64,000 bases of DNA from NCBI RefSeq assembly GCF_026151205.1, contig NC_087075.1, forward strand, positions 14,893,628 to 14,957,627. The letters run 5' to 3'. Of the stretch, positions 1-52,795 are shown piece after piece. Numbering within the stretch: the stretch's first letter is position 1; every line of letters begins with the position of its first letter. Under the pieces are notes generated by a model. That model saw nothing but the letters and a program-made list of their open reading frames with translations, ran no database searches and had not been told where the DNA came from. A program made the translations under genes and the position numbers. The stretch is from Bolinopsis microptera (Eukaryota; Ctenophora; Tentaculata; Lobata; Bolinopsidae).

Positions 1-3000
1 TTGACTGCTTTTATCAGAGCAATGTGAATATGCTTTTCGATGTTAAATTGGAAGTGTGGCACAAAATAAGCTTTGATTAGGACTAGTTAAGATAAAATAT
101 TTTGATAACAAATTAAGTGCAATGTTAAATGCATACCGAATGAAAAATGAAATGACGAAACTAGATGTAGAAAGTAATTTATATCAATAGTTGAATTCTT
201 GTGTTGAGCCCTATCTAAATTATTATCATAATATGCTAGGTACTGATATCAGCGAGGAATTTTAACATGTATCGAGAACACAACGCTGAGGTGACGGAGA
301 AGCAAAGTGAAGCGGTTTAGTTTTTTCCTCTGTTGTAGATTGAAGAAGAGAAATGTACTTACAGAACGGTGGGCCGTGAGAGTTCACACAACTGTTCTAT
401 ACTCAAACTCAGAGATTCGATACAACTTAATAATAACAATTTCCTAACAGCCTTCATTTGAACTCAATTTTAATTGTAAGCACCTATAACATAGTAAGCT
501 CTATCTTTTAAGCTGCCTGTAAAGTTCCACTTAATTTCAGAGAACTAGACCTCTGTGACTTTGTATCAGTGGACAGTTTCTTATCCAGCTCGGTTGTTGA
601 ATGAGTACTGTTGACAAGACACGCAAACTCAAGCTCTCACCACCAAACCGGATATAGTGAACGGTGTTCTGTCAATTCTACAGGATATCAACAAGAATAT
701 GGTAGGTGATTTTCATTCGATTTAAAGACTAGTGACCACCATTACCTCTCATACAGAATATCTTTTTAGTATGAAATGTTTCAATGTGCTTTATTACCGA
801 ACTTATTTCCGTAGGTTTTCATCATAAAAAATACTTTAAATGATTGTGCCACTATTTTTAAACAAAAATACAGTTTTAAGGATTATCTGATAGTTTGATG
901 TTGTAACATTAAAAACAGGTGCCACAAGGAGTCATCCAGAGTGTTGAAAGAGTACGGTACATGGTGAAAGCGTGGGAGTCAAGGAGTAAACGCCTCCTCA
1001 TCAAGAGTGCAGTGCCTCCTGAAGAAGTGTGATATTGTCCGGGTGGTGGTCATACGGTTAACGAGGCAACCTTATTTTTAGGTGAGGTGGGTTATAAATT
1101 GTGCAGCCACGGGATTTTTAATGGTTTTTATTCTCTCATCCAGAGTTTTTGAGATTGAATAATACAATAATAAGTTTGCTCATAGCATAATCTCTGAAAA
1201 TCTTCTGTGCAATTCTAAGAAGAATTACGTGAGTTATTAAAGGTCGCGTATGGCAGTTACTTCTGGGCCACTCTGTATAATTGGGTAGCTCTGCAGTGTA
1301 GTCAGGGTCATACATTATAATTAAAAATATATTTAATTTAGCAGGGAGATAAATTATTAATCATCTCTTATTAACTGTCTAATTAACACAGTCTAATTAA
1401 AACACAGGACTGTACGCCGGTAGGGATGAAACACTTTCGGGAAACAGTAACCACGTACTCTTATTCCTCTGGACGCCAGGTCCACCTGTTAATATCCACC
1501 GATTAAGAAACAGGCTGCTAACGACTGAGATACCTTCCTTGGGGTATCCTGGTAGGGTACTCTTCCACTTAGGGACTGTTTTGGCTGGGGTGATGCAACG
1601 ACAATTAAGTCAGTATTCCATAAAAACCCCAAACTGACATTGACATTAATTGACATTAATTGACATTAAATTGACATTAATTGACATTAAATGACATTAA
1701 TTGACATTAATTGACATAATTCGATAAATTATTTCAAGATATTCACGTCTATGGTAAAGTTAGATCGGTTCAAAAAAACAAATATGTCCTTAAAAATTTA
1801 TATTATTTCTTATCTGTTGATCCTTAGTGTTTCAAAGACCAACCAAAAAAATTTTTCAGCTCCAACTCCTTCCATCTTCGGTCCCCACCCCCACCGCACC
1901 ATAGTTTATTGGTTTCTTATACAGGTAAAATATCTAGGAATCGGCTTTTTTTAGTAGAAGGAGTAAAGGTTAGCTGTTTTAAAATTCGTTATTACAAAAA
2001 TAAATGTCATGAAGGCATTTCGTTTACATGTGGGTTTAGTTCTGATGATGTTGAGAACCACGCCCCTTGGGATGGCCCAAGCCCATTTAAGAAAATTAAA
2101 TTTCGAAACCGTATTATTTTAGTTTTTATGTTTAATGATCTGAATTTTTTCACATTTCACATTTCAATGTGATAGGATGAATAAAATTGATGATATAAAC
2201 GTCTAAAGTTGCTAAAAATAGGAGAACTACATAATCTCTGTGCGATAAATAACAGTCAATTTAATGTCAGTAGTCCAAAATTTTGTCAAAACTGACATAA
2301 TTGACATTAATGGACATAGTTGACATTAATTGACATTAGATTGTACATTAATTGACGTGGCTTCCCCCTTTTGCTAGATAGGAACCGACCGGTCTAAGGT
2401 TCTTTGGCTGCCGGACCAGAAAAGACCGGATATTCCCGGTTTGTCCGCATTTTTCCGGCCGAACCGGGTAATAAGAAGAAGAATTAAGCTCACGGAAATT
2501 GAGAATTAATCCTTGATTGATGGGTTTTATCAATTATAATATTAAAAGCCATGTGGACACAATGGAGAAAAGTGCTTACAGTCCGACTAACATGTTCACG
2601 CCTCTTATTTCAAAATTTCAACCAAACTCTGCTCTGTGAGCAGCAGTCACTTGATGATATTTTGTGGCGAGCAGTGCATAGGTCACTGATTGATCTGCTG
2701 TATGAGCAGAGCTAGAAACGAGTTGGAATAAATCAAAACATTGCAAGAATTCACTGCGCCTGCTATCACAAATGTAACAAATTGCTCAGTAGTAAAAGCC
2801 CAAGATCCAGCAGCCAGTGCAGCTCTATAAGTTCGTGGCGTCAATATAACGCGAGGATAATGGTCCAAAAAGATTTAATGGCATGATGGCCTTTGTTTAT
2901 CCTTGACATGTAAGGGGATTATCAACGGTTTGTTTACACAATAAAGCAGGGACCCTCTGGGGCTCTGCTTTGAAAGCTCATAAGTAAAGCATAAATGGTA

Positions 3001-3972
3001 GCTGTTTTGACTCTAACGCCACGTCAAAATCTCCGATCATCAACGGTCTTGAACATTCGCTGACAGATTACAGGCGACCGTGAGGCGTGGGAATTTACCG
3101 GTCACGAGAGCAATGGACTGGATGCCCCTTAGTAAGAATTTTGACAGAAATTTATACGATTTTAGGAACACGTCAAAAAAGAAATGGTCCTGTTGAATAG
3201 CCGGCAATTTTGAACCGGACCGAAAACCGGAACCGGAACGGAATTAAAGCCGAATATCCGGCTGAACCGGATTCTAGCCGATATCCGGTCAGTTCCCTCC
3301 GATGGCTAGAAGGAGCTTTAATTCTACTAGTCCATGGAGATATTTCTTCTTCTTCTGGCTATTAAATAAAATTATACTTTTTTACTTAAAAACTTACTAT
3401 GTGTTATTTATCGCGATGTTTCTTTATTCACTACTAAATAAATCCCCGTTTGGAGACCCTGAATATCCTAACGAAAGGGCTCCGGTACACCTAATACATC
3501 TGAAGGACAATTGTACAACATTAAGAGTGTACTGGAGGTGGAGTACCCTCTAAACGCAAGTTAGCCGCCAGAGTCCTCCTCATTAACCCGAAACAAGGTG
3601 ATTTTTGTACCCTTTCCATGATGATGCGATAGGTTCAATTTTAGTAGATAAATTAAGGATTTACTGTGTGATAAGGTACACAATTCTCTACGGTAGCTAC
3701 TCACTAGAATATTGGTTAGAAGTTGTAAACATAATGTAACAGTGTAAATCATTGTAAATGTAATCAGTGTTACATGTCACGCAGTGTAAATCAATGCAAA
3801 TGTAACAGTGTTAATGTAACAGTGTTACAACTCTCCGACCGTGCTGTTGAGTACATTGAACTGCCATTAACCATGAGACACCCTGCTACCAACTAAAGAG
3901 GGGTGGATGTGGTGGAGGTTGTGGAAGGTGGTCATGGATACTATACGTGGGGTGTATGGTCTCCTTGAGACG
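1..3972 (+). pseudogene. RRP5/PDCD11-like partial gene copy, unit A (5' cut by window edge)
   Basis: This is the first, partial unit. Visible exons are: end of E2 1-21, E3 240-314, E4 541-701, E5 919-1081, E6 1144-1228, E7 about 1408-1551, E8 3477-3597, E9 3838-3972. E1 and most of E2 lie left of the window. The usual donor after E2 reads gagcaatg instead of gaggtaatg, and E9 ends gacgtcag rather than gacggtcag. Both are one- or two-base changes of the kind that break every copy here. The reading is taken from comparison with the other units, since no exon except E4 is open over its full length in this copy. See the unit-B exon entries for the protein content. Confidence 0.7.
2379..3302. mobile_element. 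hAT-type miniature element, unit A
   Basis: Terminal inverted repeats are taggaaccgaccgg on the left and ccg(g)tcagttcc(c)t on the right. Both are followed by CCGG-rich subterminal repeats (ccggaaccggaacc types). The flanking 8-bp duplication is worn here (tgctagat / tggctaga). It lies in the E7-E8 intron. Confidence 0.75.
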
Positions 3973-5420
3973 TCAGTAGTCTGTACTTCAGTCAGTAGTC
4001 TGTAGTTTAGTCAGTAGCATGTAGTTCAGTCAGAAGTCTGTAGTTCCGTCAGTAGTCTGTAGTTCAGTCAGTAGCTTAGTTTCAGTCCGTAGTCTGTAGT
4101 TCAGTCATAGTCTGGTACTTCAGTCAGTAGTCTGTACTTCAAGTCAGTAGTTCTGGTAGTTCCAGTCATAGTCTGTATGTTCAGTCAGTATCCCCTGTAC
4201 TTCAGTCAGTATCTGTACTTCAGTCATAGTCCCCCCCCCCCCCTGTAGTTCAGTCAGTATCTGTAGTTCAGTCAGTAGTCTGTACTTCAGTTCAGTAGTC
4301 TGTACTTCAGTCAAGTAGTCTGTACAGCAGTCAGTAGTCTGAGGTTCATTCAGTAGTCGGTAGTTCGTCAGTAAGTCTGTACTCCATCAGTTGTCTGTAC
4401 ATCAGTCCAGTAGTCTGTAGTTCAGTCTGTAGTCTGAGTCAGTCAGTAGTCTGTTCTTCAGTCAGGTAGTCTGTACTTCAGTCAGTATCTGTATTCAGTC
4501 AGTAGTCTGTAGTTCAGTCAGTAGTCTCTGAGTTTAGTCAGTAGTCCTGTAGTTCAGTCAGTGTCTGTACTTCAAGTCATAGTCTGTACTTTCAGTCAGT
4601 AGTCTGTAGCTTCGAGTCAGTATCTGTACTTCAGGTCAGTAGTCGGAGTTCAGTCAGTAGTCTGTAATGTCATCAGTAGTCCTGTACTTCAGTCAGTAGT
4701 CGTACCTCAGTCAGTAGTCTGTAGTTCCAGAGTCAGTAGTCTGTACTTCAGTCCAGTAGTCTGTAGTTTGTCAGTACATGTCGTTCAGTCATAGTCTGTA
4801 GTTCAGTCAGTACTGTAGTTTCAGTCAGTAGTCTGTAGTTCATCAGTAGTTTGTAGTTCAGTCCCGTAGTCTGTACTTCAGTCAGAGTCTGTCTTCAGTC
4901 AGTATCTGTACTTCAGTCAGTAGCGCTGTCACTTCAGTCAGTAGTCTGATACGTCAGTCAGTAGCCTGTAAGTTCAGCTCCAGTAGTCTGGTACTTCAGT
5001 CAGTAGTTCCCGTAGTTTAGTCAGTAGCATGTAGTTCAGGCAGTAGTCTGTAGGTTCAGTCAGTAGTCTGTAGTTCAGTCAGTAGTCTGTAGTTCAGTCA
5101 GTATCTGTATTCAGTACAGTAGTCTGTACTTTTCAGTCAGTAGTCTGTACTCATCAGTAGTCTGTACTTCAGTCAGTAGTCTTGAGTTCAGTCAGTAGTC
5201 TGTAGTTCAGTCAGATAGTCTGTACTTCAGTCAGTATCTTACTTCAGTTCAGTAGTCTGTAGTTCAGTCAGTAGTCTAGTATCTTCGGTCCAGTAGTCTG
5301 TACTTCAGTCAGAGTCCTGTAGTTCAGTCAGTTAGTCAGAGTTCAGTCAGTAGTCCTGTAGTTAAGTCAGTAGTCTGGTAGTGTTTCAGGCAGTAGTCTG
5401 TACTTCAGTCTAGTCAGTCT
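3973..5420 (+). repeat. 19-bp minisatellite, unit A
   Basis: About 75 imperfect copies of CAGTCAGTAGTCTGTACTT, with TT/GTT variation at the end. A marker variant, gtagcatgtagtt, appears near 4015 and again near 5025. A run of 13 C at 4231-4243 interrupts it. It follows E9 directly. Confidence 0.95.
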
Positions 5421-6214
5421 TTGATATATCACTTTATTACTTAATGCCGTGTATGAACTCGATACCTCATGCATGGTCAATATGAATGATAATGAACAAA
5501 AATGATATGTTTATCTCGTATAAATGATAGTGAATACGAAAGTTTTAGTTATTGATTGATTGCACGACCCCGAGGCAGTACTCTGCATTCACCCTTAAAA
5601 TGTTAATTACAAAATCAATTAAAGATATACACACATACATAAATATAGATAACACTATTAGGGAAATGAAAATAGTTCTTATCTCTACAATTACTTTAGA
5701 ACAGTAATACAGAGTCAGAAAGAATCTCACCGATATCTTATTCAGGAAAATGGCAGTGAAAATTGTTGGATGGCTGTGTAGCATTAGTAAAATACCTCGA
5801 AGATAGTCATATTCTTCTGCGATAAGAGATTGTGTTTCGTTGCTGTACTTGTCCCGCAACTTTTAATCACCCTGTTTATCACACTCCTAAACCTGGGCAA
5901 CGATAGCGACTGTGGATGTGGGTATTCGATTACCAAATATGTCACGTGAACATCTAAACAGTTTGTAATTAGTTTATGCACGAATATACAACACCGAAAT
6001 CACTCCTGAGTATGCCTCAGATAGACTCTTTTGTAATTTTTGGCCTCGTCGATATCTGCTGTTGATTTTCATTCAGCATCGGTGTATTTTTCTTCACAAA
6101 TTTACACATAGTAGAACCAATTTGTCCGCGCCCAAATTTACCCTGAAAGCTGGCCGTGGTTTCGAGTGTGGATATTGATTAAATAACTGAATTCTTTAAA
6201 AATTGTATTTTCAG
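5421..6214. other. Lead-in between minisatellite and E1; possible LINE tail
   Basis: This is the non-exonic start of a unit; equivalents begin at 12621, 19758, 26936, 34099 and 41270. Read on the minus strand, it shows a frame fragment around GSVIKGVIKVAGSTATKH and then, further along, gagtactgcctcggg ending in CAATCAATCAA-like repeats near 5545-5570. That resembles the 3' tail of a non-LTR element. The match is from pattern only; no reverse transcriptase motif is present. No initiator exon for the RRP5-like gene was found here, although one would be expected upstream of E1. Confidence 0.3.
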
Positions 6215-6317
6215 AAAGAAAAAGTAGAGCATATATCTCGGAAAATTCCATAGCCAAAAAGTCTAAAGATGATTCTATTCTGATCCTGGGAAAACCATTG
6301 AAGATCTTACATACAAG
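6215..6317 (+). CDS. RRP5-like exon E1 (charged linker before S1 domain 1)
   Basis: The acceptor is ttttcag|AAAG; the donor is AAG|gaaac here and AAG|gtaaac in other units. The consensus of units encodes about 35 residues beginning KEKVEHIFSEK, then a Lys/Ser/Asp-rich stretch, then DLGKPLEDLTYK. In RRP5 proteins a charged linker leads into a short leucine-containing segment directly before the first S1 domain, which is the position here. The phase at both ends is 0. Equivalent exons in other units: 13427-13529, 20556-20662, 27732-27835, 34898-35003 and 42069-42175. No upstream exon carrying an initiator methionine was identified. Confidence 0.65.
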
Positions 6318-6359
6318 GAAACGATAAACACATTATTTGTTAGATTAGTAATATATTAC

Positions 6360-6992
6360 TAGTGTAAACCCGGCCTACGGCCGGAATTTCACTTTCCGCA
6401 GTTAAAAAGGGTAGGAGTAATTACCCCGCTGAGTCAAAACCCCGGATAGGCGGCAAGTCAATTCGGAGTGCCCTCACGTATCCCAATATATTGCTTAAAA
6501 GATGAGTAATTCTTAATGAATAATCAATAGAATTAACCCTTAACCACACCATGCACCACACCAGCCTATCATATTTGTGACATGCATTACATTGTCGTAT
6601 GAAAGTATGAACTCTCTCTACAGAGTCCAAACAGACCGTTGAGCACGTCCCTCCCCTAATAAGTTTTTATAGTTGATATGACCCATGTAATATAAACCCA
6701 TGTAATATATACGCTACATATGCAGAGAGAGAGCTAGCCCCGTAAACTCTTGCCGTTCTTCTCAAGCCATTTTATTTAAAATATTTGGTGGTACAAAACA
6801 TCAATTTAAACCAAACCACTTACCACCGGCCGATTTTTATAAAATTGGCTTATTGGCTCGTCAGAGTTTTGTCGGCACTAAACCGGAAAAACCCGGGGGG
6901 AGTCCCGTAACTATTACCGTTTTTTTTGTATAACCGTTCGGTTCGAATTACACACAGACACACACACAGACACACACACAGACACACACACC
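6360..6992 (+). mobile_element. Possible retroposon in the E1-E2 intron: palindromic head, ACACACAGAC tail
   Basis: The segment starts near an inverted repeat CCCGGCCTACGGCCGG(G) (6369-6384) and ends in a microsatellite of ACACACAGAC units (6950-6992), a layout common to SINE-like or LINE-derived retroposons. The same head and tail recur at 13579 and 14130-14172, 20714 and 21285-21330, 27887 and 28438-28482, 35051 and 35611-35655, and 42222 and 42791-42834. No target duplication or RNA polymerase III box was identified, so the class is uncertain. Confidence 0.35.
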
Positions 6993-7113
6993 TTCTGGTG
7001 TTATTAAGTTGATAATACACTTGCTATGAACCTGACCTTTGATCGTCTCATTGGCACAAATCCAAAATATCACTCTCTAGACATCATATTAATTGTGGAT
7101 ATTCTGTTTTTAG

Positions 7114-7212
7114 AAACTTCCCCTGGTAGCTGCATGCTCGTGTTTGTTTCTGAAGTTGTTGAGGTTGATGTGGTAGTGAACCTGCCCAACGGATTGACTG
7201 GCTTTATCAGAG
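7114..7212 (+). CDS. RRP5-like exon E2 (S1 domain 1, first part)
   Basis: The acceptor is tttttag|AAACT and the donor AGAG|gtaatg. The consensus encodes KLSPGMLMLVFVSEVGEVDV followed by IVNLPNGLTGFIRG. The G-M-x-L-x-x-V-x-E-V ... LPNGLTGF pattern is the hallmark of S1 repeat 1 of RRP5. In this copy the frame is open from SEV through GFIRG, with VVEVDVVVNLPNGLTGF visible directly. It joins E3 in phase 1. Equivalents: 14297-14394, 21455-21551, 28598-28693, 35781-35875, 42957-43053, and the end only at 1-21. This is the strongest single piece of evidence for the family call. Confidence 0.8.
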
Positions 7213-7428
7213 GTAATGTAATATGCATTCTAATGTAAATTGTATTGTGGCACCGAAATAAGCTTGGAATTAGATCTAGCTAAGATAAAATATTTTGTTA
7301 ACAAATAAGTGCAATGTTAAATGCATAACGAATGAAAAATGAAATGAAAAAGAAACTAGATGTAGAAGTAATTTATTACAATATTGAATTCTTGTGTTGA
7401 GCCATACTAAAATTATCATATATGCTAG

Positions 7429-7505
7429 GTACTGATATCAGCGAGGAATTTTAACATGTTATCGAGACAACGCTGAAAGGTGACGAGAAGCCAGAAGGTG
7501 TAGAG
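7429..7505 (+). CDS. RRP5-like exon E3 (end of S1 domain 1, acidic loop)
   Basis: The acceptor is gctag|GTACTG and the donor GAG|gttag. The consensus continues S1 domain 1 as GTDISEEFNSVIENN, then an acidic AEGDEEAEGEE run. In RRP5 the LPNGL..GF strand is followed by a T-[ED]-I-S helix and then a poorly conserved acidic linker, as seen here. The reading frame requires the acceptor at gctag rather than at the nearer gatatcag. Equivalents: 240-314, 14610-14682, 21778-21860, 28914-28991, 36100-36174 and 43271-43348. Confidence 0.7.
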
Positions 7506-7729
7506 GTTAGTTTCCTCTGTTTGAGAAGTTGAAGAAGAGAAATGTAAACGTACAGAACGTGGGCGTGAGGAGTTCACCACACTGTTCTATACTCAAACAC
7601 AGAGATCGATACTAAATTAATCATAACAATTTCCTAAACACCTTCTTTTGAACATCAATTTATAATGTAAGCCGACCTTTAACTTAGTATCTCTATTCTT
7701 TAAGCCCTGTAAGTTCCACTTAATTTCAG

Positions 7730-7885
7730 GAACGAGACCGCTGTGACGTTGTAATCAGTGGTACAGTTCTATCCTGCTCGGTGTTCGATTGTAGTTACTG
7801 TTGACAAGACACGCAAACTCAACCTCACCACCAAACCGGAGATAGTGAACGTTCTGTCAAGCAACAGGATAGACAACAGAATATG
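7730..7885 (+). CDS. RRP5-like exon E4 (S1 domain 1 to 2 connector)
   Basis: The acceptor is atttcag|GAAC and the donor is AATATG|gtagg(t), in phase 0 at both ends. The consensus encodes ELDLCDVVSVGQFLILLVVD, then VVTVDKTRKLNLTTKPEIVN, then VSVKQQDINKNM. This has the layout of the RRP5 segment between S1 repeats 1 and 2: a V-G-Q-[FL] strand, a K-x-x-[KR]-L-x-L-[ST] strand, and a helix leading to the next domain's G-M. Equivalents: 541-701, 14910-15071, 22087-22247, 29214-29382, 36403-36557 and 43568-43716. Confidence 0.7.
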
Positions 7886-8116
7886 GTAGTGATTTCATTC
7901 GATTTAAAGACCTAGTGACCACACCTTACCTTCTTCATAAGAATATCTTTTTTTATGTATGAAATGTTTTTCAATGTTGCTTTATTAGCCTGGAAACCGT
8001 ATTTTCCCGGTAGGTTTTCATCTTAAAAATACATTACATGATTGTGCCACTATTTTAAAAACAAAAATACAGTTTTAGGATTAACTGATAGTTGAAGTTG
8101 TAAACATTAAAAACAG

Positions 8117-8275
8117 GTGGCTACAAGGAAGTCCTCCAGGTGTTGAAGATTACGGGTACATGTGAATCGTGAGCAAGGAGTAACAGCCTTCTCAACAAAG
8201 TGCAAGTGCCTCCTGCAGAAGGTGATATTGTCCGGGTGGTGGTCAGTAACGTAACGATGGGCAACCGTATTTTAG
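8117..8275 (+). CDS. RRP5-like exon E5 (S1 domain 2)
   Basis: The acceptor is aaacag|GTGCTAC and the donor TTTTAG|gtgag. The consensus encodes VLQGVIQSVEEYGYMVNVGV, then KGVTAFLNKSAVLLKKCDIV, then RVVVNTVNDGNLIL. V-x-G-x-[IV]-x-[SV]-[VL]-E-x-[YH]-G-Y-[ML]-V followed by G-V-x-[AG]-F-L is a canonical S1 five-stranded barrel and resembles RRP5 repeat 2. The exon leaves phase 1 as read, which does not fit E6 (see findings). Equivalents: 919-1081, 15301-15455, 22467-22622, 29602-29775 (contains a run of 10 A), 36779-36938 and 43938-44118 (contains a T-rich insertion). Confidence 0.75.
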
Positions 8276-8339
8276 TGAGTGTGTTATAAATTGTGCAGCC
8301 CCGGGGGATTATTAAAGTGTTTTTTATTTCTCTATCCAG

Positions 8340-8420
8340 AGTTTGAGATTGAATAATACAATAATAAGTTGACTCATATCTATAATCTCTGAAATTTTGT
8401 GCAATTCTAAGAAGAATTAC
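8340..8420 (+). CDS. RRP5-like exon E6 (S1 domain 2 to 3 connector)
   Basis: The acceptor is tctcyccag|AGTTTG and the donor AATTAC|gtgagt. In the phase-0 frame the consensus reads SLRLNNTIISLTHIYNLLKF, then LCNSKKNY. SLRL is what an RRP5 repeat 2 should show right after the NDGNLIL strand. In the frame dictated by E5 as written, translation stops after five codons, so the E5-E6 junction or the consensus carries an unresolved base. Equivalents: 1144-1228, 15520-15601, 22686-22766, 29840-29927, about 37014-37087 (acceptor damaged) and 44185-44269. Confidence 0.5.
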
Positions 8421-8600
8421 GTGAGTTTATTAAAGGGTCGCGTATGGGCAGTTACTTTCTGGCCACTCGTATAATTGGGTAGGCTCTGGCAGTGTAGTCA
8501 GGGTCATACCTTTATATTTAAAATAGTTTTAATTTTAGCAGAATAAATTATTAATCATCACTTATTAACTGTCTAGATTAACACCGTCTAATTAACACAG

Positions 8601-8742
8601 GACTGTACGCGGTTAGGGATGAAAGCACTTTCGGAGAAAACATAGACCACGGTCTCATCTCTGACGCCAGGCACCTTGTTAATATCACCGTTAAGAAACA
8701 GGCTGCTAACGGACTGAGATGTACCTTCTTGGGGGTATCCTG
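8601..8742 (+). CDS. RRP5-like exon E7 (S1 domain 3, first part)
   Basis: The donor is TATCCTG|gtagg. The second half of the consensus encodes TVTTFSSLTPGHLVNITVKK, then QAANGLRCTFLGVS, with the W of E8 completed across the intron. The L-x-P-G-x-[LV]-V ... G-L-x-x-x-F-L string is S1 repeat 3 of RRP5. The acceptor is less certain. Taking cacag|GACTG keeps one frame open only if the G run in ttcggg has four G, so the first 12 codons are tentative. Equivalents: 1408-1551, 15788-15936, 22946-23092, 30107-30258, 37270-37412 and 44448-44592. Confidence 0.6.
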
Positions 8743-8825
8743 GTAGGTACTCTTCCACTTAGGACGGTTTGCTGTGGGTGATGCAACGTCAATTAAGGTC
8801 AGTAATTCCCTTAAAAACCCAAACG

Positions 8826-9557
8826 ACATTGACATTAATTGACATTAAGTGACATTTAATTGACATAAATTGACATTAATTGGACATTAATTGACATAAT
8901 TGACATTAATTCGATAAATATTCCAAGATATTCACGTCTATGTAAGTTAGATCGGGTTCAACAAAAAACAAAATGTCCTTATATAATTATGAGTATGTTC
9001 TATCTGTTAATTCCTTAGTTCAAAGAACGACCAAAAAAATTTCAGCTTCCAACTCGTCCACCTTCGTCCCCACCGGCCACGCCGCATTATTTTTATTGGT
9101 TTCTTATACAGGTACAATATCTAGGAATCGGCCTTATTTTTAGTAATGAATGGTGAGTAATGTTACTGTTAAAATTCGTTTATTCAAAATAAATGTCCTG
9201 AAGGCATTTCGTTTAATGTGGGTTTTTTTAAGTTCTGATGATGTGAGGAACCACCCCATGGATGCCAAGCCCATTTAAAGAAAATTAAATTTCGGGGAAC
9301 CGTATAATTTTAGTTTTATTGTTTATTGATCAGAATCTTTTCACATTTCACATTTCCATATGTGATAAGTATGAATAAATTGAGATATAAACGTTCTACA
9401 ACTAGAAGGCTAAAAAAAAATGGTAGAATCTACATATCTCTGTCGAAAATATCATGTCAATGTAATGTCAGTATTCAAAATTTTGCAAAACTGACATTAT
9501 TGACCCATTAATTTGACATTAATTACATTAATTGACATAATTGACATTAATTGACGT
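8826..9557. repeat. Block bounded by (TTGACATTAA)n decamer repeats
   Basis: Two short arrays of the decamer TTGACATTAA (8826-8911 and 9490-9557) bound about 580 bp of AT-rich DNA. Both arrays are preceded by a related string (aatgtcagtattcca then aaactgacatt), so each end of the block looks like a direct repeat. The right array touches the hAT target site. Equivalent blocks start near 1637, 16015, 23176, 30343, 37499 and 44689 and end near 2356, 16728, 23905, 31046, 38210 and 45405. No ORF of note lies inside. Confidence 0.7.
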
Positions 9558-9581
9558 TGCATTCCCCCCCGTTTGCTAGAG

Positions 9582-10504
9582 TAGGAACGAACCGTCTTAA
9601 AGGTTTTTGGCTGCCGGACCAGAAAAGCCGGATATTCCGGTTGTCGTCATTTTCCGGGCCTGAACCCGTAATCAGTAAGAAGATATTAAGGCTGCCGAAA
9701 TTGAGATAATCCTTGATTGTGGGTTTTATCAATTATAATATTGAAAAGCCATGTGGAACACAATGAGAGAAAGAAAGTCTTTACAGTCCGACAACTTGTC
9801 ACGGCCTATTCAAAATTTCAACCAACTTCTGCGCTGTAGCAGCATCACTTGTTGATAGTTTGTGCGAGCATGCAGAGGTCACTCACTGATTGGATCTGCT
9901 GTATGAGCAGCGCTAGAAACGAGGTTGAATAAAAATCAAAACATTGCAAGAATTCACTGCGCCTTGCCTAGAACAATGACAAATTGCTTCGTAGTAAGCC
10001 CAAGATCCCAGCAGGCCAGTGCAGCTCTTATTAAGTTCGTGGCGTCAATATATCCGAGGATAATTCCAACGTTTTTAATGGCGATATGGCCTTTGTTTTT
10101 TATCCTTGACATGTAAGGGGAGTTAGCAAGGTTTGTTTACCACAATAAAGCGGACCCTCTGGCTCTGCTTGAAATGCTCATAAGAAAAGCATAAAATGGT
10201 ACTAGTTTTGACTCTAACCCACTCAAAAATCTCACAACAACGGGTCTTGAACATTCGCTGACAGATAACAGGCGACGTGGAGGCGTGGAATTACCGGTCA
10301 CTGGTAGGCAAGGGCGACTGGATGCCCCTTAGTAAGAATTTTGACATAATATCAACATTTTAGGAAAACTAAAAAAGAAATGTCCTGTTGAATATCCGCC
10401 AAATTTTTGGAAACCGGACCGAAACCGGAACAGAACCGGAGATTAAAGCCGAATATCCGCTGGGAAGAAAACCGGGATTCAGCCGGTAATCGGTCAGTTC
10501 CCTA
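9582..10504. mobile_element. hAT-type miniature element, unit B
   Basis: The left end TAGGAAC follows TTGCTAGAG and the right end CAGTTCCCTA precedes TGCTAGAG, giving the 8-bp target duplication TGCTAGAG typical of hAT elements. The element is 923 bp with CCGG-rich subterminal regions. No open transposase is present. The middle has minus-strand open stretches, but no hAT catalytic or dimerisation motif was recognised. Confidence 0.8.
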
Positions 10505-10670
10505 TGCTAGAGAGCTTTATTTTCTACGATGGTCCATGGAGATATTTCTCTTCTGGCTATTAAATATATTTACCTTGTTGTACTTAAAACTTACTATGTG
10601 TTTATTTTAATCGCGATGTTCTTTTTATTCACAACTAATTAATCCCCGTTGCCTGAATATCCCTAAGCAG

Positions 10671-10782
10671 TCCCGTACACCTAATACATTCTAAGGACAT
10701 GTACAACAGTAAGATGTACTGAGGTGACACTGCTCACGCAAGTTTAGCCGCCAGAGTCCTCCTCATAAACCCTGGAAAACAG
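10671..10782 (+). CDS. RRP5-like exon E8 (S1 domain 3, second part)
   Basis: The consensus acceptor is cctaacag|GGGCTCC and the donor AACAAG|gtgag. It encodes WGSVHLIHLKDMYNSKSVLE, then VYPAKRKLAARVLLINPENK. FLGVSW-GSVHLIHL spans the E7-E8 junction and lines up without gaps with the [F]-L-x-x-x-x-G-x-V-x-x-x-H-L segment of RRP5 repeat 3. K-L-x-A-R-V-L-x-[IV]-[ND]-P is the usual fourth strand. The splice needs four G at the acceptor, seen only at 32171; the other units show two or three. Equivalents: 3477-3597, 17824-17946, 25021-25137, 32171-32292, 39341-39460 and 46537-46649. Confidence 0.75.
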
Positions 10783-10914
10783 GTGGAGTTGTACCCTGTC
10801 TGATGATGCTATAGTTCCTTTTAGTAGATAAATTAAGGATTTAACTGTGTGATAAGGAACACCAATTTCTACTGTAGCTACTCCACTAAATATTTGGTAG
10901 AAGTTGTAAACATA

Positions 10915-11005
10915 ATGTAACAGTGTAAATCTTTGTAAATGTAACAGTGTAAATGTAAACATGTAAATCATTGCAAATGTAACAGTGTTTATGTAACCAG
11001 TGTTA
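10915..11005 (+). repeat. TAACAGTGTAAATCATTGTAAATG-type intronic repeat
   Basis: Degenerate repeats of TAACAGTG and TAAATCATTG(T/C)AAATG motifs end one splice acceptor short of E9. The same block lies at about 3735-3830, 18072-18170, 25272-25362, 32425-32518, 39588-39680 and 46784-46876. Confidence 0.75.
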
Positions 11006-11015
11006 CCACTCTCAG

Positions 11016-11984: not shown

Positions 11985-12021
<37 letters not shown>

Positions 12022-37800: not shown

Positions 37801-39825
37801 TCGATCGGCTTTTTTAGTATGAAGAGTAATTTTAGGCTGTTTAAAATTCGTTTTCACAAATAAATGTCTGAGGGCATTTCTTTTAATGTGGGTTTTAAGT
37901 TCTGATGATGTTGAGAACACGCCCTTGGATGCCAACCCATTTAAGAAATTAAATTTCGGAAAACGTATTATTTAGTTTATTGTTTTAATGATCTGAATTT
38001 TTTTACATTTCACATTTCCATATGTGATAGAGTGAATATATTGATGATATAAACGTTCTAACTGCTAAAAATATGTAGAACTACATAATCTCTGGTCGGA
38101 AAAATATCATGTCAATTAATGTCATATTCCAAAAATTTTGCAAAACTGAACATTAATTGACATTAAGTTGACTAATGACATTAATTACATTAATGTGACA
38201 TTAATTGACGTTGCATGTCCCCCCGTTTTGCTAGAGCGGAGGAACCGACTCGGTCTAAGGTTTTTGGCTGCCGGACCAGAAAAGACCGGATATTCCGGTT
38301 TGTCGCATTTTTCCGGGCCGGAACCGGTAATAAAGAAATTTTTATAAGGCTGCCGGAAAATTGAGATTAATCCTTGATTGTGGGTTTTATTCAATTATAA
38401 TTTAAAAGCCATGTGAACACAAATGAGAAAGTGCTTACCAGTCCGATCGACTAACTGAGTCACGCCTATTTTCAAATTTCAACCAAACTTCTGCGCTGTG
38501 AGCAGCAGGTCACTTGTGATATGTTGTGCGAGCAGTGCAGAGGTCACTGAATTGATCTGCTGTATGAGCAGAGCAAGAAACGAGTTTGGAATAAAATCAA
38601 ACATTGCAAGGAATTCAATGCGCCTTGCCCTACGGACAAAGTGTACAAAGTGCTTCAGTAGTAAAGCCAAGATCCAGCAGCCGTGGCAGCACTTATAAGT
38701 TCGTGCGTCATATAACCGAGGAAATGGTCCAAAGTTTTTAATGGCATGATGGGCCTTTGTTTAATCCTGACATGTAAGGGGAGTTAGCCACGGTTCTGTT
38801 TACCAACAATAAAGCAGGACCCTCTCGGCTCTGCTTGAAATGCTCATGAAGTAAAGCATAAATGGTAGCTGTTTTGACTCTAACACCCACGTCGAAAAAA
38901 TCTCACATCACGGTCTTGACATTCGCTGACAGAATAACAGCGAACCTGTGGAGGCGTGGAATTTACCGTCACTGAGAGCAATGGACCTGGATGCCCCTTA
39001 GTAAGAATTTCTGACAGAAATATTAACATTTTATGAACACTTAAAAAAGAAATGTCCTGTTGAATATCCGGCCAAATTTTTGAAACTGCCGGACCGAAAC
39101 CGAACCGGAACCGGAGATTTAAAGCCGAAATATCCGGCTGGAACCGGATTCAGCCGAATATCCGGTCAGTTCCTATGCTAGAGGGAGCTTTATTTCTACT
39201 ATGTCCATGAGAATATTTCTTCTTCGGCATTAAATTATATTAACTGGTTTACTAAAAACTTACTATGTTATTTTTAATCGCGATGTTTCTTTTGCACAAC
39301 TAAGTAATCCCCGTTTGAGTCCCTGAATATATCCCTACAGGGCTCCGTACAATCTAATACATCTGAAGGACATGTACAACAGTAAGAGTGTTACTGGAGG
39401 TGTACCCGCTAAACGCAAGTTAAGCTCGCCAGAGTCCTCCTCATTAACCCTGAAACCAAGGTGAGTTGTACCCTGTCTTGATGATGCTATAGTGCATTTT
39501 AGTAGATAAATTAAGGATTTACTGTGTGATAAGGTACACAATTTCTCTACTGAGCTACTTCACGAGAATATTGGTTAGTATTGTAAACAATGTAACAGTG
39601 TAAATCATGTTAAATGTATACAGTGTAAATGTAACATGTAAACATTGCAAATGTAACAGTTGTTTAATGTAACAGTGTTACAACTCGTCAGACAGTGTTT
39701 TGAGTACAATGAACTGCCAATGTAACCATGAGCAAACCCTGCAACCAACTAAAGAAGGTGATGTGGTGGAGGATGTGGAGTGGGTCAGGGTTACTAAAGC
39801 GTGGTGTATGTCTCACTGATGAACG
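34898..39825 (+). pseudogene. RRP5/PDCD11-like partial gene copy, unit F
   Basis: Exons: E1 34898-35003, E2 35781-35875, E3 36100-36174, E4 36403-36557, E5 36779-36938, E6 about 37014-37087, E7 37270-37412, E8 39341-39460, E9 39692-39825. The E6 acceptor is lost (tctcaattgag where other units have tccagagtttgag), and the E6 donor reads tacggttg. E8 here keeps the whole KRKLAARVLL segment apart from small indels. Confidence 0.72.
38237..39175. mobile_element. hAT-type miniature element, unit F
   Basis: The left flank is tgctagag followed by a damaged first base (cggaggaaccgac). The right end ccggtcagttccta is followed by TGCTAGAG. Length about 939 bp. Confidence 0.78.
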
Positions 39826-41269
39826 GTCAGTAGTCTGAACTTCAGTCAGTAGTCTGTAGTTTAAGTCAGTAGCATGTAGTCAGTCCAGTAGTCCTGTATT
39901 TCAAGTCAGTAGTCTGTAGTTCAGTCAGTATTCTGTAGGTCAGTCAGTAGTCTGTAGTTCAGGTCAGTAGTCTTGGATACTTCAGTCAGTATCCTGTACT
40001 TCAGTCATGTAGTCTGTAGTTGTCAGTCAGTAGTCTGTAGTTCAGTCAGTAGTCTGTACTTCAGTCAGTAGTTCCCGGTACTTCAGGTCAGTAGTCTGTA
40101 GTTTCAGTCAGTAGTCTGTAGTTCAGTCAGTAAGCTGTACTTCAGTCAGTAGTCTGTACTTTCAGTCAGTAGTCTGTACTCCGTCAGTATCTGTAGTTCA
40201 GTCATAGTCTGTAGTTCAGTCAGTTGTCAGTACTCCAGTCAGTAGTCTGTACTGTCAGTCATTATCTGTAGTTCAGTCAGTAGTCTTGTAGTTTCAGTCA
40301 GTAGTCTTACTTCAGTCAGTAGTCTGTACTTCAGTCAGTAGTCTGTAGTTCAGTCAGAAGTCTGTAGTTCAGTCAGTAGTCCTGTAGTTTAGTCAGTAGT
40401 CTGTAGTTCATCAGTAGTCTTACTTCAGTCAGAGTCTGTACTTCGTCAGTATCCGGTACTTCAGTCAGTAGTCGTACTTCAGTCAGTAAGTCTGTAGTTC
40501 AGTCAGTAGTCTGTACTTCAGTCAGGGAGCTGAACTTCATTCAGTATCTGTACTTCATCGTAGTCTGGTAGTTCAGTCATAGTCTGTACTTCAGTCAGTA
40601 GTCTGTAGTTTATCAGTAGCATGAGTTCAGTCAGTATCTGTAGATCAGTCAGTAGTCTGTAGTTCATCAGTAGTCTGTAGTTCAGGTCAGTAGTCTGGCA
40701 GTTCCAGTCAGGTAGTCAGTACTTCTCAGTCAGTAGTCTGTACTTCAGCAGTAGTCTGGACTTCAGTCAGTATCTGTACTTCATCAGTATCTGTACTTCA
40801 GTCAGTAGTTCCCCCCACTGTTAGTTCCAGTCAGTAGTCTGTCTTCAGTCAGTAGTCCTGTAGTTTATCAGTAGCATGTAGTTCCGTCAGAAGTCTGTAG
40901 TTCATCCAGTAGTCCAGAGTTCAGTCCAGTAGTCTGTAGTTCAGTCAGTAGTCTGTAGTTCAGGTCAAGTAGTCTGTACTTCAGTCAGTAGTCTGTACTT
41001 CAGTCAGTATGTCTGTACTTCAGTCCAGTAGTCTGTAGTTCAGGTCATTATCTGTATTCAGTCAGTAGGTCTGTACTCAGGCAGTAGTCTGTACTTCAGT
41101 CATAGGACTGTAGTTCATCAGTAGTCTGTAACTTTCAGTCAGTAGTCCCTGTACTTCAGTCAGTAGTCCTGAGTTTCAGCAGTAGTTCTGTAGTTTCCAG
41201 TCAGTATCTGTAGTTTAGTCCCATTAGTCTTAGTTCATCAGTAGTCTGTAACTTCAGTCCTAGTCTGTC
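39826..41269 (+). repeat. 19-bp minisatellite, unit F
   Basis: Same 19-bp unit, about 76 copies. The marker variant is near 39870, 40610 and 40870. A short C run sits at about 40811-40816. Confidence 0.95.
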
Positions 41270-42068
41270 TTTATATCACTTGTATTACTACTGCCGTGTA
41301 TGACCTCGAGACCTCATTCTATGGGTCTAGATGAAAGATAATGAACAAAAACGTGAATATGATTATATCGTAACATGATAGTGAATACGAAAGTTTTAGT
41401 TAATGATGGATTGCACGACCCGAGGCAGTACTCCGGCATAACGCCTATAAAAAATGTTTAATTACAATCAATTTAAAAGATATACACAACATACATACAT
41501 ATAGATAACACACTTAGGGGAATGCAAAAGGTTTCTTATCTCTTACATAATTTGAACGTAATACAGATCTGAAAGAATGTCACAGATACTTATCAGGAAA
41601 ATGGCAGTGAAATTGTGGATGCGTGTAGCATTGTAAAATACCTCGAAAATAGTCATATTTCGTTTCTGGCGATAAAAGTTTTGTGTTTCGTTGCTGTACT
41701 TCCCGCAAACTTTAATCACACCTTTTAACACACTTCCTAAACCTCTGGCAACGTAGCGACTGTGGAGTGTGGGTATTCTGATTACCAAATATGTCACTGA
41801 ACATCTAAAACAGTTTGAAAGTAGTATAGCACGATATTAAACACCGAAATCAACTCCTGAGTAATGCCTCAGAATAGACTCTTTGTAATTTTTTGGCTCG
41901 GTCGATATCTGGTCTGTGATTTTCATCATTCAGCATCGGTGTAGTTTTCTGCAAATTTACACATGATAGAACCAATTTGTCCGCGCTCAAAATTTACCTG
42001 AAAACTGGCCGAGTTCTGAGTGTGGATATTGATTAAATAAAGGAATTCTTTAAAAATTAGTATTTCAG

Positions 42069-45000
42069 AAAGAAAAAGTAGAGCAAATATTCTCGGAAAA
42101 ATCCATAGCCAAAAAGTCGAAAGATGATTCTATTACCTGAATCTGGGAAGAACCATTGGAAGATCTACACACAAGGTAAACATAAACAATTTATTGTTAA
42201 TTATATAATAATTATAGTGTAGACCCGGCTACGCCGGGATTTCACTGCCGCATTAAAAAGGGTAGGAGTAATTACCCGCTGAGTCAAAACCCGGATTAGG
42301 CGAGCAATTCTTTCGGAGTGCCCTCAACGTATCCAATAGTTAGCTTAAAAGATAGTAACTTTCTTAATGAATAATCAATAAAATTACACCTTAACACCAT
42401 GCACCACACCAGCCCTATCATATTTTGTGAACATGCTTTACATTGTCGTATGAAAGAATGAACTCTCTCTACAGTCCAAACAGAACCGTTTTTGAGCACT
42501 GCCCGGTCCCTACTAAGTTTATAGTATTATATGACCATGTAATATATACGGCCCATTAATATATACGCTACATATGCAGAGAGAGAGCTACCCCGTTAAC
42601 TCTTGCCGTTCTTCATCAAGGCATTTTATGTAACATTATTTTGTGGTACAAAACCATCAATTAAACCACTTACCACCGCCGATTTTTTATAAAAATTTGC
42701 TTATTGGCTTCGTCAGAGTTTTGTCGCAACTAAACCGAAAAAACCAGTCCCGTACTATTACCGTTTTTTTTGTATAACCGTTCGGAAATTACACACAGAC
42801 ACACACATACATACACACACACCGACACAAACCACATTCTGGTGTTATTAAGTTGATTAATACACTTGCAGACCGGACCTTTGTATCGTCCATGGCACAA
42901 ATCCAAAATATCACTCCACTCTAACAACATATTAATGTGGATATTCTGTTTTTTAGAAACTGCCCCTGGTATGCTGAAGCTCGGTGTTGTTTCTGAAGTT
43001 GGTGAGGTTGGATGTGTATGAACCTGCCAAGGGATTACTGGCTTTTATCAGAGGTAATGTGAATATGCATGTTCTATGTTTAAATTGTATGAGTGGCACC
43101 AAATAAGCTTTTGAATAGATCTAGCTAAGATAAAAATAGTTTGATAACAAATTAAGTGCAATGTTAAATGCAACCGAATGAAAAATGAAATGTAGACACT
43201 AATGTAGAAGTAATTTATATCAATTTTGATTCTGTGTTGAGCCCATATCTAATTATTACATAATATGCTAGTACTGAAATCCCGAGAATTTAAACAGTGT
43301 TACGAGAACTAACGCTGGAAAGTGACGAGGAAGCAGAAAGGGTGAAGGGTTAGTTTCCCTCTGTTGTAGATTTGAAGAAGAGAAATGTACTTACAGAACG
43401 TGGCGTGAGAGTTCACCACACTGTTCTATACTCAAACTCAGAGATTCGAACTAAAATTAATCATAACAATTTCCTAAACAGCCTCCATTTGAACATCAAT
43501 TTATAATGTAACCACTATAACATAGTATCTCTATGCTTTAAGCTCCTGTAAGTTCCACTAATTCTAGGACTAGACTCTGTACGTTGTATAAGTGGGCAGT
43601 TTCTTATCCTGCTCGTTGTTGATGTAGTTACTTGTTGACAAGACACGCAACTCCAACCTCACCACCAAACCGAATAGTGAACGTTTCTGTAAGCAAACAG
43701 ATATCAACAAGATATGGTAGGTGATTCATTCGATAAGGACTAGTGACCACCTTACCTCTTCATAAGAATATCTTTTTTAGTATGAAATGTTCAATGTTGC
43801 TTATATTAGCCCGAACCCTTAAAATTCCGGTAGGTTTTCCGTCATCTTAAAATCTTTTAAATGATTGTGCCACTATTTTTTAAACAAAAATACAGTTTTT
43901 AGGATTATCTGATATTGAGTTGAAACATTAAAAACAGGTGCTACAAGGAGTCATATCCAGAGTGTTTGAAGAGTACGGGTACATGGTGAACGTGGGTCAA
44001 GGGAGTAACGGCCTTCTCAACAAGAGTGCTGTGCTCTGAAGAAGTGTGATATGTCCGGGTGGGTGGTCAATACGGTTACTATGGGCAACCTTTTTTTTTT
44101 TGTTTTTTTTTATTTTAGTGAGAGTGTGTTATAAATTGTGGCAGGCCCGGGGATTGATTAAATTGTTTTATTTCTCTCTCCCAGAGTTTGAGATTAATAA
44201 TTACAATAATAAGTTTGACTCATATCTATAATCTCCTGAACGTTCTGTGCAAGTCTGAAGAAGAATTACGTGAGTTATTAAAGGGTCGCGTAATGGGCAG
44301 ATAACTTCTGGGCCACTGTATAATTGGGTAGCTCTGGCAGTGTATCAGGGTCAAACATTTATTAATAAAATATTTAATTTTAGCAGGGAGATATATTATT
44401 AATCATTCTTATTAACCTGTCTAATTAACACAGTCTAATTAACACAGGACTGTACGAGCGGTAGGGAAATGAAAGCCTTTCGAGAAAACAGTAACCACTT
44501 CTCTTCTCTGACGCCAGTCACCTTGTTAATAATCACCGTTTAAAAACAAGGCTGCTAACGGACGAGATGTACCTTCCTTGGGGTTAGTCCAGGTAGGGTA
44601 CTCTTACCACTTAGGGACTGTTTTGCTGGGGTGATGCAACGCCAATTTTAATGTCAGTATTCCAATAAAAACCCCAAATCTGACATTGACATTAATTGAC
44701 ATTTAATTGACATTAATTGACATTAAATTGACATTAATTGACATTAAGTGACATTAATTACATTATTCGATAAATATTCAAGAATGCACGTCTATGTAAG
44801 TTAGATCTGTTCAAAAAACAAAAATGTCCTTAAATAATTAGAGGTATGTTTCTTTATCTGTTGAGTCCTTAGTCAAAGACCACCAAAAAAAAATTTTCAG
44901 CATCCAAATCCAACTCTTCCGATCTTCGTCCCCGACCGGCCACGCCCATATTTATTGTTTTCTTATACAGTAAAATATCTAGAATCGGCTTTTTTGTAGT

Positions 45001-47034
45001 ATGAAGGAGTACTGTTAGCTGTTTAAAATTCGTTATTCAAAATAAATGTCAATGAAGGCATTTCGTTTAATGTGGTTTTTAAGTTCTGAATGATGTTAGA
45101 ACCACGCCCTTGGATGGCCAAGCCCATTTAAGGAAAATTAAATTTCGGGAAACCGTATTATTTTATTTATTGTTTAATGATCTGATTTTTCCCACATTTC
45201 ACATTCACAAATGTGATAGGTAGTGAATAAATTGATGACACAAAACGTTCTAAAGTGCTAAAATATGGTGTAAACTACTAATCTCTGGTCAAAAATATCA
45301 TGTCAATATATGTCAGTATTCCAAAAATTTTGCAAAACTGACATTAATTGACATTAAATGTCATTAATTGACATTAAATTGCATTCATTGACATGTAATT
45401 GACGTGCATTCCCCCCGTTTTTTGCAAAGAGAAGGTAACCGACTCGGTCAAAGGTTTTGCGGCTGCCGGACCAAAAAGACCCGATATATTCCCGGTTGTC
45501 GCATTTTTCCGGGGCCGGAACCGGGGTACTAAGACGAAGATATATAAGGCTGCCGAAAAGATTGAGATATCCCTTGATTGTTGGGGTTTTATCAATTAGT
45601 AATATTAAAAGCTGTGGACACAAGAGAAAGTGCTTAACAGTCCGACTAACTGTGTTCACGCCCTATTTCAAATTTCAACCAAACTTGCTGCTCTGGAGAG
45701 CAGCAGTCACATGTTGAATATGTTGTGGCGAGCAGTGCAAGAGGTCACTGATTGATCTCTGTATGAGCAGAGCTCGAAACGAGTTGGAATAAAATTCAAA
45801 CTTTGCAGAATCACTGCGGCCTTGCCTAGGCACAATGTACAAATTGCTTCAGTAGTAAAGCCCAAGATCCAGCAGCCAGTGCAAGCTCTTATAAGTCGTG
45901 CGCGTCAATATAACCGAGTATATGTCCAAAGTTTTTAATGGCCATGATGGACTTTGTTTATAATCCTTGACATTAAGGGGAGTTAGCACGGGTTTTGTTT
46001 TACCAAAAGAAAGCAGGGACCCTCTGGGCTCTGCTTGAAATGCTCATAAGTAAAGCATCAATGGTAGCTGTTTTGACTCTCACCCACTCAAAAATCTCAC
46101 ATCCAACGGGTCTGAACATTCGCTGAAGATAACAGGCGACCGTGGAGGCGTGGAATTTACCGTCACTGAGAGCAATGGACTGGATGCCCCTTAGTAAGAA
46201 TTTGACAGAAATATTATACATATTTAGGAACACTTAAAAAAGAAATGTCCCTGTTGAATATCCGTCCCAAATTTTTGAAACCGTACCGAAACCGGAACCG
46301 GAACCGGAGATTAAAGCCGAATTTCCGCATGGAAGGATTCAAGCGGAATATCCGGTCAGTTCCTATGCTAGAAGGGCTGCTTTATTTCTACTATGGTCCA
46401 TGGAGATATTTCTTCTTCTGTGGCTATTAAATATATTTCCTTTTTACTTTAAAAACTGTACTATGTGTTATTCAATCGCGATGTTTCTTTTATTCACAAC
46501 TAAATAATCCCCGTTTGACCCTGATATCCCTAACAGGCCCGTACACCTAATACATCTAAGGACATGTACAACAGAAGAGTGTACTGGAGGTGTACCCTGC
46601 TAACGCAAGTTAGCCGCCAGAGTCCCTCCTCATAAACCCTGAAAACAATGTTGGCGTTGGTAACCTTCTTGAATGATGCTATAGGTTCATTTTAGGAGAT
46701 AAATAAGGATTTACTGTGTGATAAGGTTCAACAATTCTCTACTGTAGCTACTCACTAGAATATTTGCTAGAATTTGTAAACCATAATGTAACAGTGTAAA
46801 TCATGGTAACAGTGTAACAGTGTAATATGTAAGACAGGTAAATCATTGCAAAATGTAACAGTGTAATGTAACAGTGATACAACGCTCAGACATTGCTGTT
46901 GATTAAATTGAACTGCCATGTAACCATGGAAGACACCCTGCTAGCCAACTAAAGAAGTGGTGATGTTGTGGAGGATAGTGGGGAGGTGGTCAGGGTTTAC
47001 TAAACGGGGTGCATATTTCTCACTTGAGAAAACG
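42069..47034 (+). pseudogene. RRP5/PDCD11-like partial gene copy, unit G (last copy)
   Basis: Exons: E1 42069-42175, E2 42957-43053, E3 43271-43348, E4 43568-43716, E5 43938-44118, E6 44185-44269, E7 44448-44592, E8 46537-46649, E9 46890-47034. The end of E5 carries a T-rich insertion at 44091-44112. The E8 donor reads aacaatg instead of aacaaggtg. This is the copy closest to the unique sequence. No further RRP5 exon, for example the rest of S1 domain 4, was found between its minisatellite and the end of the window. Confidence 0.72.
45433..46365. mobile_element. hAT-type miniature element, unit G
   Basis: The left end is damaged (gcaaagagaaggtaaccgac). The right end ccggtcagttccta is followed by tgctagaa. 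Length about 933 bp. The CCGG-rich subterminal blocks are retained. Confidence 0.75.
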
Positions 47035-48472
47035 GTCAGTAGTCCCTTACTTCAGGTCAGTAGTCGTAGTTTAGTCAGTAGCATTAGTTCAGGTCAGTAG
47101 TCTGTAGTTCAGTCATAGTCTGTAGTTCAGTCAGTAAGTCTGTAGTTTCTTTCAGGTAGTCCTGTAGTCAGTCAGTATCCTGTACTTCAGTCCCAGTTAT
47201 CTGTACTCAGTCAGTAGTCTGTAGTTCATCAGTAGTCTGTAGTCAGTCAGTAGCGTACTGTATTCAGGTCAGTAGTGCTGTACTTCAGTCATAGTCTGTA
47301 TTTTCAGTCAGTAGTCCTGAGTTCAGTCAGTAGTCTGTACTTCAGTCAGTATCCTGTACTTCATTCAGTAAGTCTGTAAATTCAGTCAGTAGTCGTAGTT
47401 CAGTCAGTAGTCCGTGTAGTTCAGTCAGTAGTCTGTAACCAGTCAGTAGTCCTGTACAGCAGTCAGTAGTCTGTAGTGTCAGTCAGGATCTGTAGTTCAG
47501 TCAGTAGTCTGTACTCAGGCCGTAGTCTGTACTTCAGCAGTTAGTCGTAGTGCAGTCAGTAGTCTGTAGTATCAGTCAGTAGTCTGTAGTTTAGTCAGTA
47601 GTCTGTAGTTCAGTCATAGGCTGTCCCTTCAGTCAGTAGTCTGTACTTCAGTCAGTAGTCTGTACTCAGTCAGTATCCTGTACTTCAGGTCATGGTAGTC
47701 TGTAGTTCAGTCAGTATCGTACTTCCAGTCAGTAGTGTCTTATCACATCATAGTCTTGTACTTCATCAGTAGTCTGTAGTTCAGTCAGTAGTCTGTACTT
47801 CAGTCCGTAAGTCCGTAGTTTAGTCAGTAGCATGTAGTTCATCCATAGTCTGTAGTTGCAGTCAGTAGTCTGTAGTTCAGTCAGATAGTCCTGTAGTACA
47901 GTCAGTAGTCTGTATTCAGTCAGCAGTCTGTACTTCAGTCAGTATCTGTCAACTTCATCAGTAGTCTGACTTCCAGTCAGTAGTCAGTACTTCAGTCAGT
48001 AGTCTGTACTTCCAGTCAGTAGTCTGTTAGTTTCAGTCGTAGTCCCTGTACTTCAGTCATAGTCTGTAGTTTAGTCAGTACATGTATTGCAGTCAGTAGT
48101 CTGTAGTTCAGTCAGTAGTCTGAGTTCAGTCAGTAGTCTGTAGTTCAGTCAGTAGTCTGTAGTCAGTCAGTAGTCTGTACTTCAGGCAGTAGTTCTGTAC
48201 TTCAGTCAGTAGTCTGTACTTCAGTCAGTAGTCTGTATTCAGTCAGTAGTCTGTTAGATTTCGTCAGTAGTCTGTACTTCAGTCAGTAGTCTGCACTTCA
48301 GTCAAGAAGTCCTGTAGTCAGTCATAAGGTCTGTACTTCAGTCAGTAGTCTGTACTTCCGTCAGTAGTCTGTAGTTCAGTCAGTAGTCTGTAGTTCAGTC
48401 AAGGAGTCTGTAGTTTAGTCAGTAGTCCCTGGTAGTTCAGTCAGTAGTCTGTTACTTCAGTCTAGTCCAGTC
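47035..48472 (+). repeat. 19-bp minisatellite, unit G (array end)
   Basis: Same 19-bp unit, about 75 copies, with the marker near 47080, 47825 and 48080. The final tcagtctagtccagtcctttatatca matches the other units only up to the last ten or so bases. Unique sequence follows. Confidence 0.95.
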
Positions 48473-48490
48473 CTTTATATCAATTTATTA

Positions 48491-49016: not shown

Positions 49017-49110
49017 TACACTGTATAGCGTATATCGTATAGCGTATATCGTATATCGTATTATAGCGTATATCGTATAGCGTAAAGCGTATATCGTATA
49101 GCGTATAACT
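49017..49110. repeat. GTATATC / GTATAGC simple repeat
   Basis: Alternating gtatatc, gtatagc and gtaaagc heptamers in about twelve steps (tatagcgtatatcgtatagc). It is self-similar, but not a perfect array. Confidence 0.8.
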
Positions 49111-52724: not shown

Positions 52725-52795
52725 CCATTTGCTGTGATGGAGATCCAATCAAATTGTGCAATTGTTCGCACGTGTATTGAGCGATATAGTGGTTT

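Follow-up and report, generated by a model that had tools for sequence, protein, structure and literature searches.

An apparent tandem array of RRP5 fragments in the Bolinopsis microptera assembly is probably one gene slice read many times over

Extrachromosomal circles give direct head-to-tail copies of one genomic slice, joined at a single microhomology junction. Raw long reads used in gap closing can also leave segments in an assembly: the parts of the TGS-GapCloser description drawn on here have filler segments cut from long reads, one of which may supply several (PMC7476103). Here we analyze 64,000 nucleotides from the ctenophore Bolinopsis microptera (NC_087075.1, positions 14,893,628 to 14,957,627; hereafter the window), in which an initial annotation had seen a tandem array of 5' fragments of RRP5/PDCD11, a ribosome-biogenesis gene. 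The copies in the window share with rolling-circle products of extrachromosomal DNA the head-to-tail order and the single microhomology junction; however, no enrichment of circles is known here, and in-tube ligation of a fragment would give the same picture. With raw filler segments, as far as that description goes, they share noise between ordinary flanks and the possibility that one read fills several gaps, but they differ in forming a tandem concatemer of more than 100 kb, with no visible flank anchor and no correction. In relation to RRP5 itself, they are noisy images of its first part and not genes. We give a probability of about 0.94 to the view that the stretch is an assembly artefact, in which one 7.1-kb slice of RRP5, read repeatedly with raw errors, would have been pasted into several chromosomes. 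There is no new gene family here and, as a gene array, the stretch is not a real feature.

The tandem repeat itself is borne out by self-comparison. Bases 1-48,496 of the window are direct repeat units of ~7.2 kb, 6.7 copies in all, at direct offsets of ~7.14-7.19 kb (unit starts at 1, 7194, 14376, 21533, 28677, 35858 and 43041). The units do run to 48,496, but base 1 is not where the array starts, contrary to the initial annotation: the array on scaffold C4 extends 69 kb further upstream of the window and measures ~117.6 kb as a whole; its edges were read directly, and its inner upstream copies are known only as genome-search matches. Base 1 is an arbitrary choice of unit start, and the physical joints lie elsewhere in the unit, where the second to seventh copies of Table 1 begin. 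Every pair of copies in the window is 81.6-83.4% identical, a star-like pattern; a nested 19-bp minisatellite is near-constant in size (74.1-76.6 copies in seven of seven units); and a run of 35 C stands at 11987-12021. Taken together, these features suggested read noise rather than age. Single copies are broken: four motifs of the initial annotation, searched with up to four edits, gave nine plus-strand matches, one of them exact. The minisatellite (~75 copies; window 3972-5420, at the same place in each unit, and from ~C11:3068400 in the clean gene described below) starts at its exon's own GTCAGT splice donor, and the intron thus holds dozens of donor-like repeats.

We searched the genome (264.65 Mb, 232 contigs) with two consensus pieces of the array. 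A clean gene on C11, near 3.07 Mb, is the single match at 98% for the first piece and at 96% for the second. The other 39 of the 40 matches scored in each search all fall in five arrays, at 88-93% for the first piece (43 candidates) and at 85-91% for the second (815 candidates); the 39 first-piece copies are spread over C4 (16), C5 (10), C1 (5), the C11 array (5) and C3 (3). All seven window copies are images, 90.2-91.0% identical, of the 7,114-bp slice C11:3063170-3070283. The joint of slice end to slice start is alike in all six window joints, bar the surrounding noise, and the trinucleotide CTA is common to both breakpoints. Edge pieces of the other arrays have their joints at the same sites, to within a few bases. 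The clean gene is continuous through both breakpoints, and its next exon begins four bases past the slice, as judged from the AG acceptor. The question of splicing from the ninth exon (E9) of one unit to the first (E1) of the next, raised earlier, thus falls away.

Table 1. Copies in the window and arrays in the assembly
Feature	Position	Strand	Remarks
Partial noisy copy, unit position 1282 to 7114	window 1..5886	+	image of C11:3064451-3070283, 90.3% to clean gene
Full noisy copy of the 7,114-bp RRP5 slice	window 5887..13092	+	90.2% to clean gene; insertions 4.6%, deletions 3.3%, substitutions 2.0%
Full noisy copy	window 13093..20223	+	91.0% to clean gene
Full noisy copy	window 20224..27401	+	90.9% to clean gene
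Full noisy copy	window 27402..34565	+	90.3% to clean gene
Full noisy copy	window 34566..41736	+	90.7% to clean gene
Last copy, incomplete, noisy, unit position 1 to 6672	window 41737..48496	+	90.3% to clean gene
Flank outside the array	window 48497..64000		unit match absent in first 2.5 kb; 0 shared 13-mers in 6 kb
Array	C4:14824569-14942123	+	edges read, interior mostly from matches
Array	C5:11556926-11639826	+	edges read, interior mostly from matches
Array	C11:14292376-14337163	-	edges read, interior mostly from matches
Array	C3:1050678-1074024	-	edges read, interior mostly from matches
Array, with 520-bp break	C1:4985785-5019402	-	edges read, interior mostly from matches

By homology the clean C11 gene is RRP5, its S1 repeats matching RRP5 above other S1 proteins. 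A query of 369 amino acids was joined by hand from the clean-gene exons, its last 42 residues coming from the exon after the slice. All four of its PDB matches at E-values up to 0.01 are Rrp5 (best E-value 2.4e-23), and in Pfam S1_RRP5 (4.1e-13), S1 (4e-13) and OB_RRP5_4th (6e-11) score above their cut-offs, while Spt6_S1 is below its own. The RRP5/PDCD11-like identity first given to the exons is therefore upheld. A genome search with the Pfam S1 domain found none of the window copies and also missed the first S1 domains of the clean gene, and is thus uninformative. A later part of RRP5 (C11:3071707-3078413) has an inverted partial duplicate ~0.2 Mb from the gene, 92-95% identical (C11:3282348-3288283 and 3290975-3291198), which is either a real duplicate or a leftover haplotype.

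How do the copies differ from their source? In the five full copies, scored against the clean slice, we count 4.1% insertions, 3.3% deletions and 1.9% substitutions. The substitutions comprise 82 transitions and 607 transversions, a transition/transversion ratio (ts/tv) of 0.14. Of 1,456 inserted bases, 1,033 equal a neighbor; CpG sites do not change faster (1.4% versus 2.0% elsewhere); and substitutions and deletions make up 3.9-6.6% of every 500-bp bin. Six more pieces, from C4, C11, C5, C3 and C1, have a like profile, with ts/tv of 0.12-0.27. As a control, the natural 95% partial duplicate of RRP5 at C11:3.28 Mb was scored in the same way, and it gives 59 transitions to 38 transversions (1.55), with 1.4% insertions, 1.5% deletions and 1.8% substitutions. 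Against the clean copy, then, the errors are rich in insertions and deletions (indels), fairly even and poor in context, and the differences look like single-pass long-read noise. In newer PacBio continuous long read (CLR) data, insertions are the leading error type.

We aligned 13 pieces to the slice, of which seven are window copies, two further ones lie in the C4 and C11 arrays and four come from C5, C3 and C1; coverage is ~11.6 copies per site. Outside the minisatellite, four of 5,669 sites carry one substitution in most copies (9/12, 9/12, 11/12 and 10/13), and they do so in both of the noisy sources distinguished below. Beyond these, no site has a substitution shared by four to eight copies, two have one shared by three and 70 have one shared by two, where independent noise would be expected to give ~1 site in three copies and ~43 in two. 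The remaining changes at 40% or more of copies are deletions in short runs or repeats, plus the joint itself. With four substitutions in most copies and none at intermediate frequency, the copies fit one template, a haplotype that departs slightly from the clean assembly.

The same noise recurs on different chromosomes. In the stretches sampled for base-for-base comparison, the C11 and C4 arrays are 100% identical over 7,433 bp, up to the edge of the C4 array, as are C5 and C3 over 4,323 bp and C5 and C1 over 2,997 bp, errors included in each of the three pairs. Equal bit scores pair further copies between arrays likewise, and the arrays stop at different unit positions. With seven other sampled pieces, the window has no 300-bp stretch in common at 97% identity or above, so that the window part of C4 and the three C5 pieces read have independent noise. 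Since the C11 array reaches 12.6 kb past the C4 edge, the source common to these two measures at least ~130 kb. Only two noisy sources (~130 kb and 83 kb) seem to underlie all five arrays, and the pattern is, on the letters compared, that of one or two raw reads pasted in several times. Inside the C1 array, ~520 bp (C1:4989333-4989854) do not align to the unit; they lie in the part identical with C5 and are perhaps a bad patch of read.

A plausible course of events can be put together from these findings. The sequencing library would have contained the slice C11:3063170-3070283 in circular form, its ends joined at the 3-bp microhomology CTA. A normal hairpin template alternates strands, so that direct copies without inverted partners suggest repeated passes around a circle; in keeping with such a template, six of six window joints connect the same two sites of the source locus. 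The circle may be natural or may have been made by ligase during library preparation. The polymerase would have gone many times round it, giving long raw reads, presumably PacBio, of direct copies with ~9% wrong per pass. At least five places of the assembly would then have received uncorrected pieces of one or two of these reads, the likeliest occasion being a gap-closing step that drew on raw long reads. Subsequent short-read polishing would have had no repairing effect on the copies, since the short reads come from the clean gene. In the sections of the genome report used here, the assembly was made from PacBio CLR with wtdbg2 and HiRise, TGS-GapCloser closed the gaps and pilon polished the result; 13 chromosome-scale scaffolds and an estimated genome of 254 Mb are reported (PMC10232365).

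Several points weigh against this account. The evidence is confined to the assembled sequence. At the 10 array edges no flank matches the unit (2.5 kb compared; 2.2 kb at the right edge of C5), unit and flanks share 0-7 13-mers per flank, and flank sequence able to anchor a read was found at none of the 10; consequently the anchoring by the gap closer cannot be shown, and the software step is one that we infer. According to the portions of its description used here, TGS-GapCloser normally corrects candidate reads, so that an uncorrected run must be assumed (PMC7476103). That the two sources of independent noise (~130 kb and 83 kb) have the same junction calls either for a single read exceeding 210 kb or for two or more template molecules, and the latter would favor a truly existing circle or array. 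As to the profile, a second stretch of the natural duplicate (493 bp) has a ts/tv of 0.81 (13:16), below that of the main control, and the indel bases of the main control (2.9%) also exceed its substitutions (1.8%). The edit figures hinge on an alignment scoring with cheap gaps. A first count on a MAFFT alignment gave a ts/tv of 0.55 and 8.9-10.0% substitutions per copy; we set it aside because alignment shifts inflate it, and the clean reference gave better figures. The noise argument rests on the general indel-rich and transversion-rich pattern rather than on a platform error table, and the published raw CLR profile NPBSS, in the part of it considered here, has deletions above insertions and more substitutions, unlike the window copies.

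The shared junction bears on what the template was. It is possible, though at odds somewhat short of even, that an extrachromosomal circle of 7,114 bp, or else a rare tandem array of homogeneous units, had really been cut from RRP5 via the 3-bp microhomology and was present in multiple copies, as more than one molecule. Another reading places in the genome a tandem array of the slice that is real, homogeneous and very young, its letters noisy from raw-read filler. All copies examined fit one template and the same junction occurs in two sources of independent noise, as such an array would have it. We nevertheless regard it as unlikely. Only two noisy sources seem to serve five arrays, which suggests few such reads, whereas a germline array of at least 18 copies should give many at the published coverage; this argument is weakened if the gap-closing tool favors certain reads. 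Moreover, the clean gene is uninterrupted through both breakpoints, and the failure of the flanks to match the unit at any array edge speaks against a young array as well.

It is very improbable that RRP5 5' fragments were repeated in tandem long ago, the copies now being ~18% diverged from one another. The tandem order and the pairwise identity of 82-83% agree with this view. However, the consensus of the copies is 96-98% identical to the present clean gene, in introns as well, and neither the transition excess (ts/tv 0.14 versus 1.55 in the natural duplicate) nor the variants common to some copies (none in four to eight of ~12) that mark an evolved array were found. In the compared stretches, differences private to a copy also turn up letter for letter on other chromosomes. 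The evolved fragments first proposed, possibly coding for S1-only or multi-unit proteins, give way to what appear to be noisy reads of one slice, on five chromosomes; an assembly artefact, the outcome that the initial annotation had itself named as speaking against its view, is the answer we reach. Mutator processes cause transitions in set contexts, and although the majority of the copies agrees with the clean gene, so that nearly all change sits on single copies, such a process in the genome (repeat-induced mutation or deaminase editing) can be dismissed almost entirely, given indel bases that outnumber substitutions by ~4:1 and the dominance of transversions. A diverged mobile macrosatellite was also considered and rejected, on the edit profile together with the base-for-base sharing and the lack of variants common to some copies.

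If the artefact reading holds, ~300 kb of a chromosome-scale assembly (summed spans), in five places, would be a noisy echo of one gene. Counts of gene copies, repeats, pseudogenes and segmental duplications there would mislead. Such artefacts can be tested for simply, by asking whether arrays on different chromosomes have private differences in common and by taking ts/tv against a clean copy.

Outside the arrays, a direct repeat (97.7% identical) flanks the C1 array on both sides, and an inverted repeat (99%) is found to the left of the array on C4. Several array edges have short tandem repeats close by, with units different from that of the arrays. Open reading frames (ORFs) at the edges of two arrays were judged by visual inspection alone; next to the C11 array, one stretch resembled a piece of a transporter gene, without bearing on the question. 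In the window, beyond the array, there is an intact reverse-transcriptase ORF of 1,010 amino acids (53964-56996, minus strand) with RVT_1 and endonuclease domains, unlike the noisy copies. It is bordered by direct repeats of ~610 bp (53313-53924 and 57353-57965, 98.4% identical), with a further copy at 52722-53316. Three tandem arrays with 18-bp and 37-bp units and 92-97% matches lie at 50253-50649, 57932-59022 and 60271-61460.

Elsewhere in the genome, glutamate-receptor-like genes give 32 matches on C1, C3, C6, C7, C8, C9, C12 and others, several of them in single frames of at least 900 amino acids. For one of these genes the best PDB match is ML032222a, a label we take to be that of the ctenophore Mnemiopsis leidyi, with 407 bits versus 243 for the next protein. 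A second receptor ORF has kainate receptors above ML032222a (195 versus 182 bits). The receptor comparisons mark the genome as that of a ctenophore, probably one other than M. leidyi. When ML032222a is searched back in the genome, its best copies are 68-74% identical.

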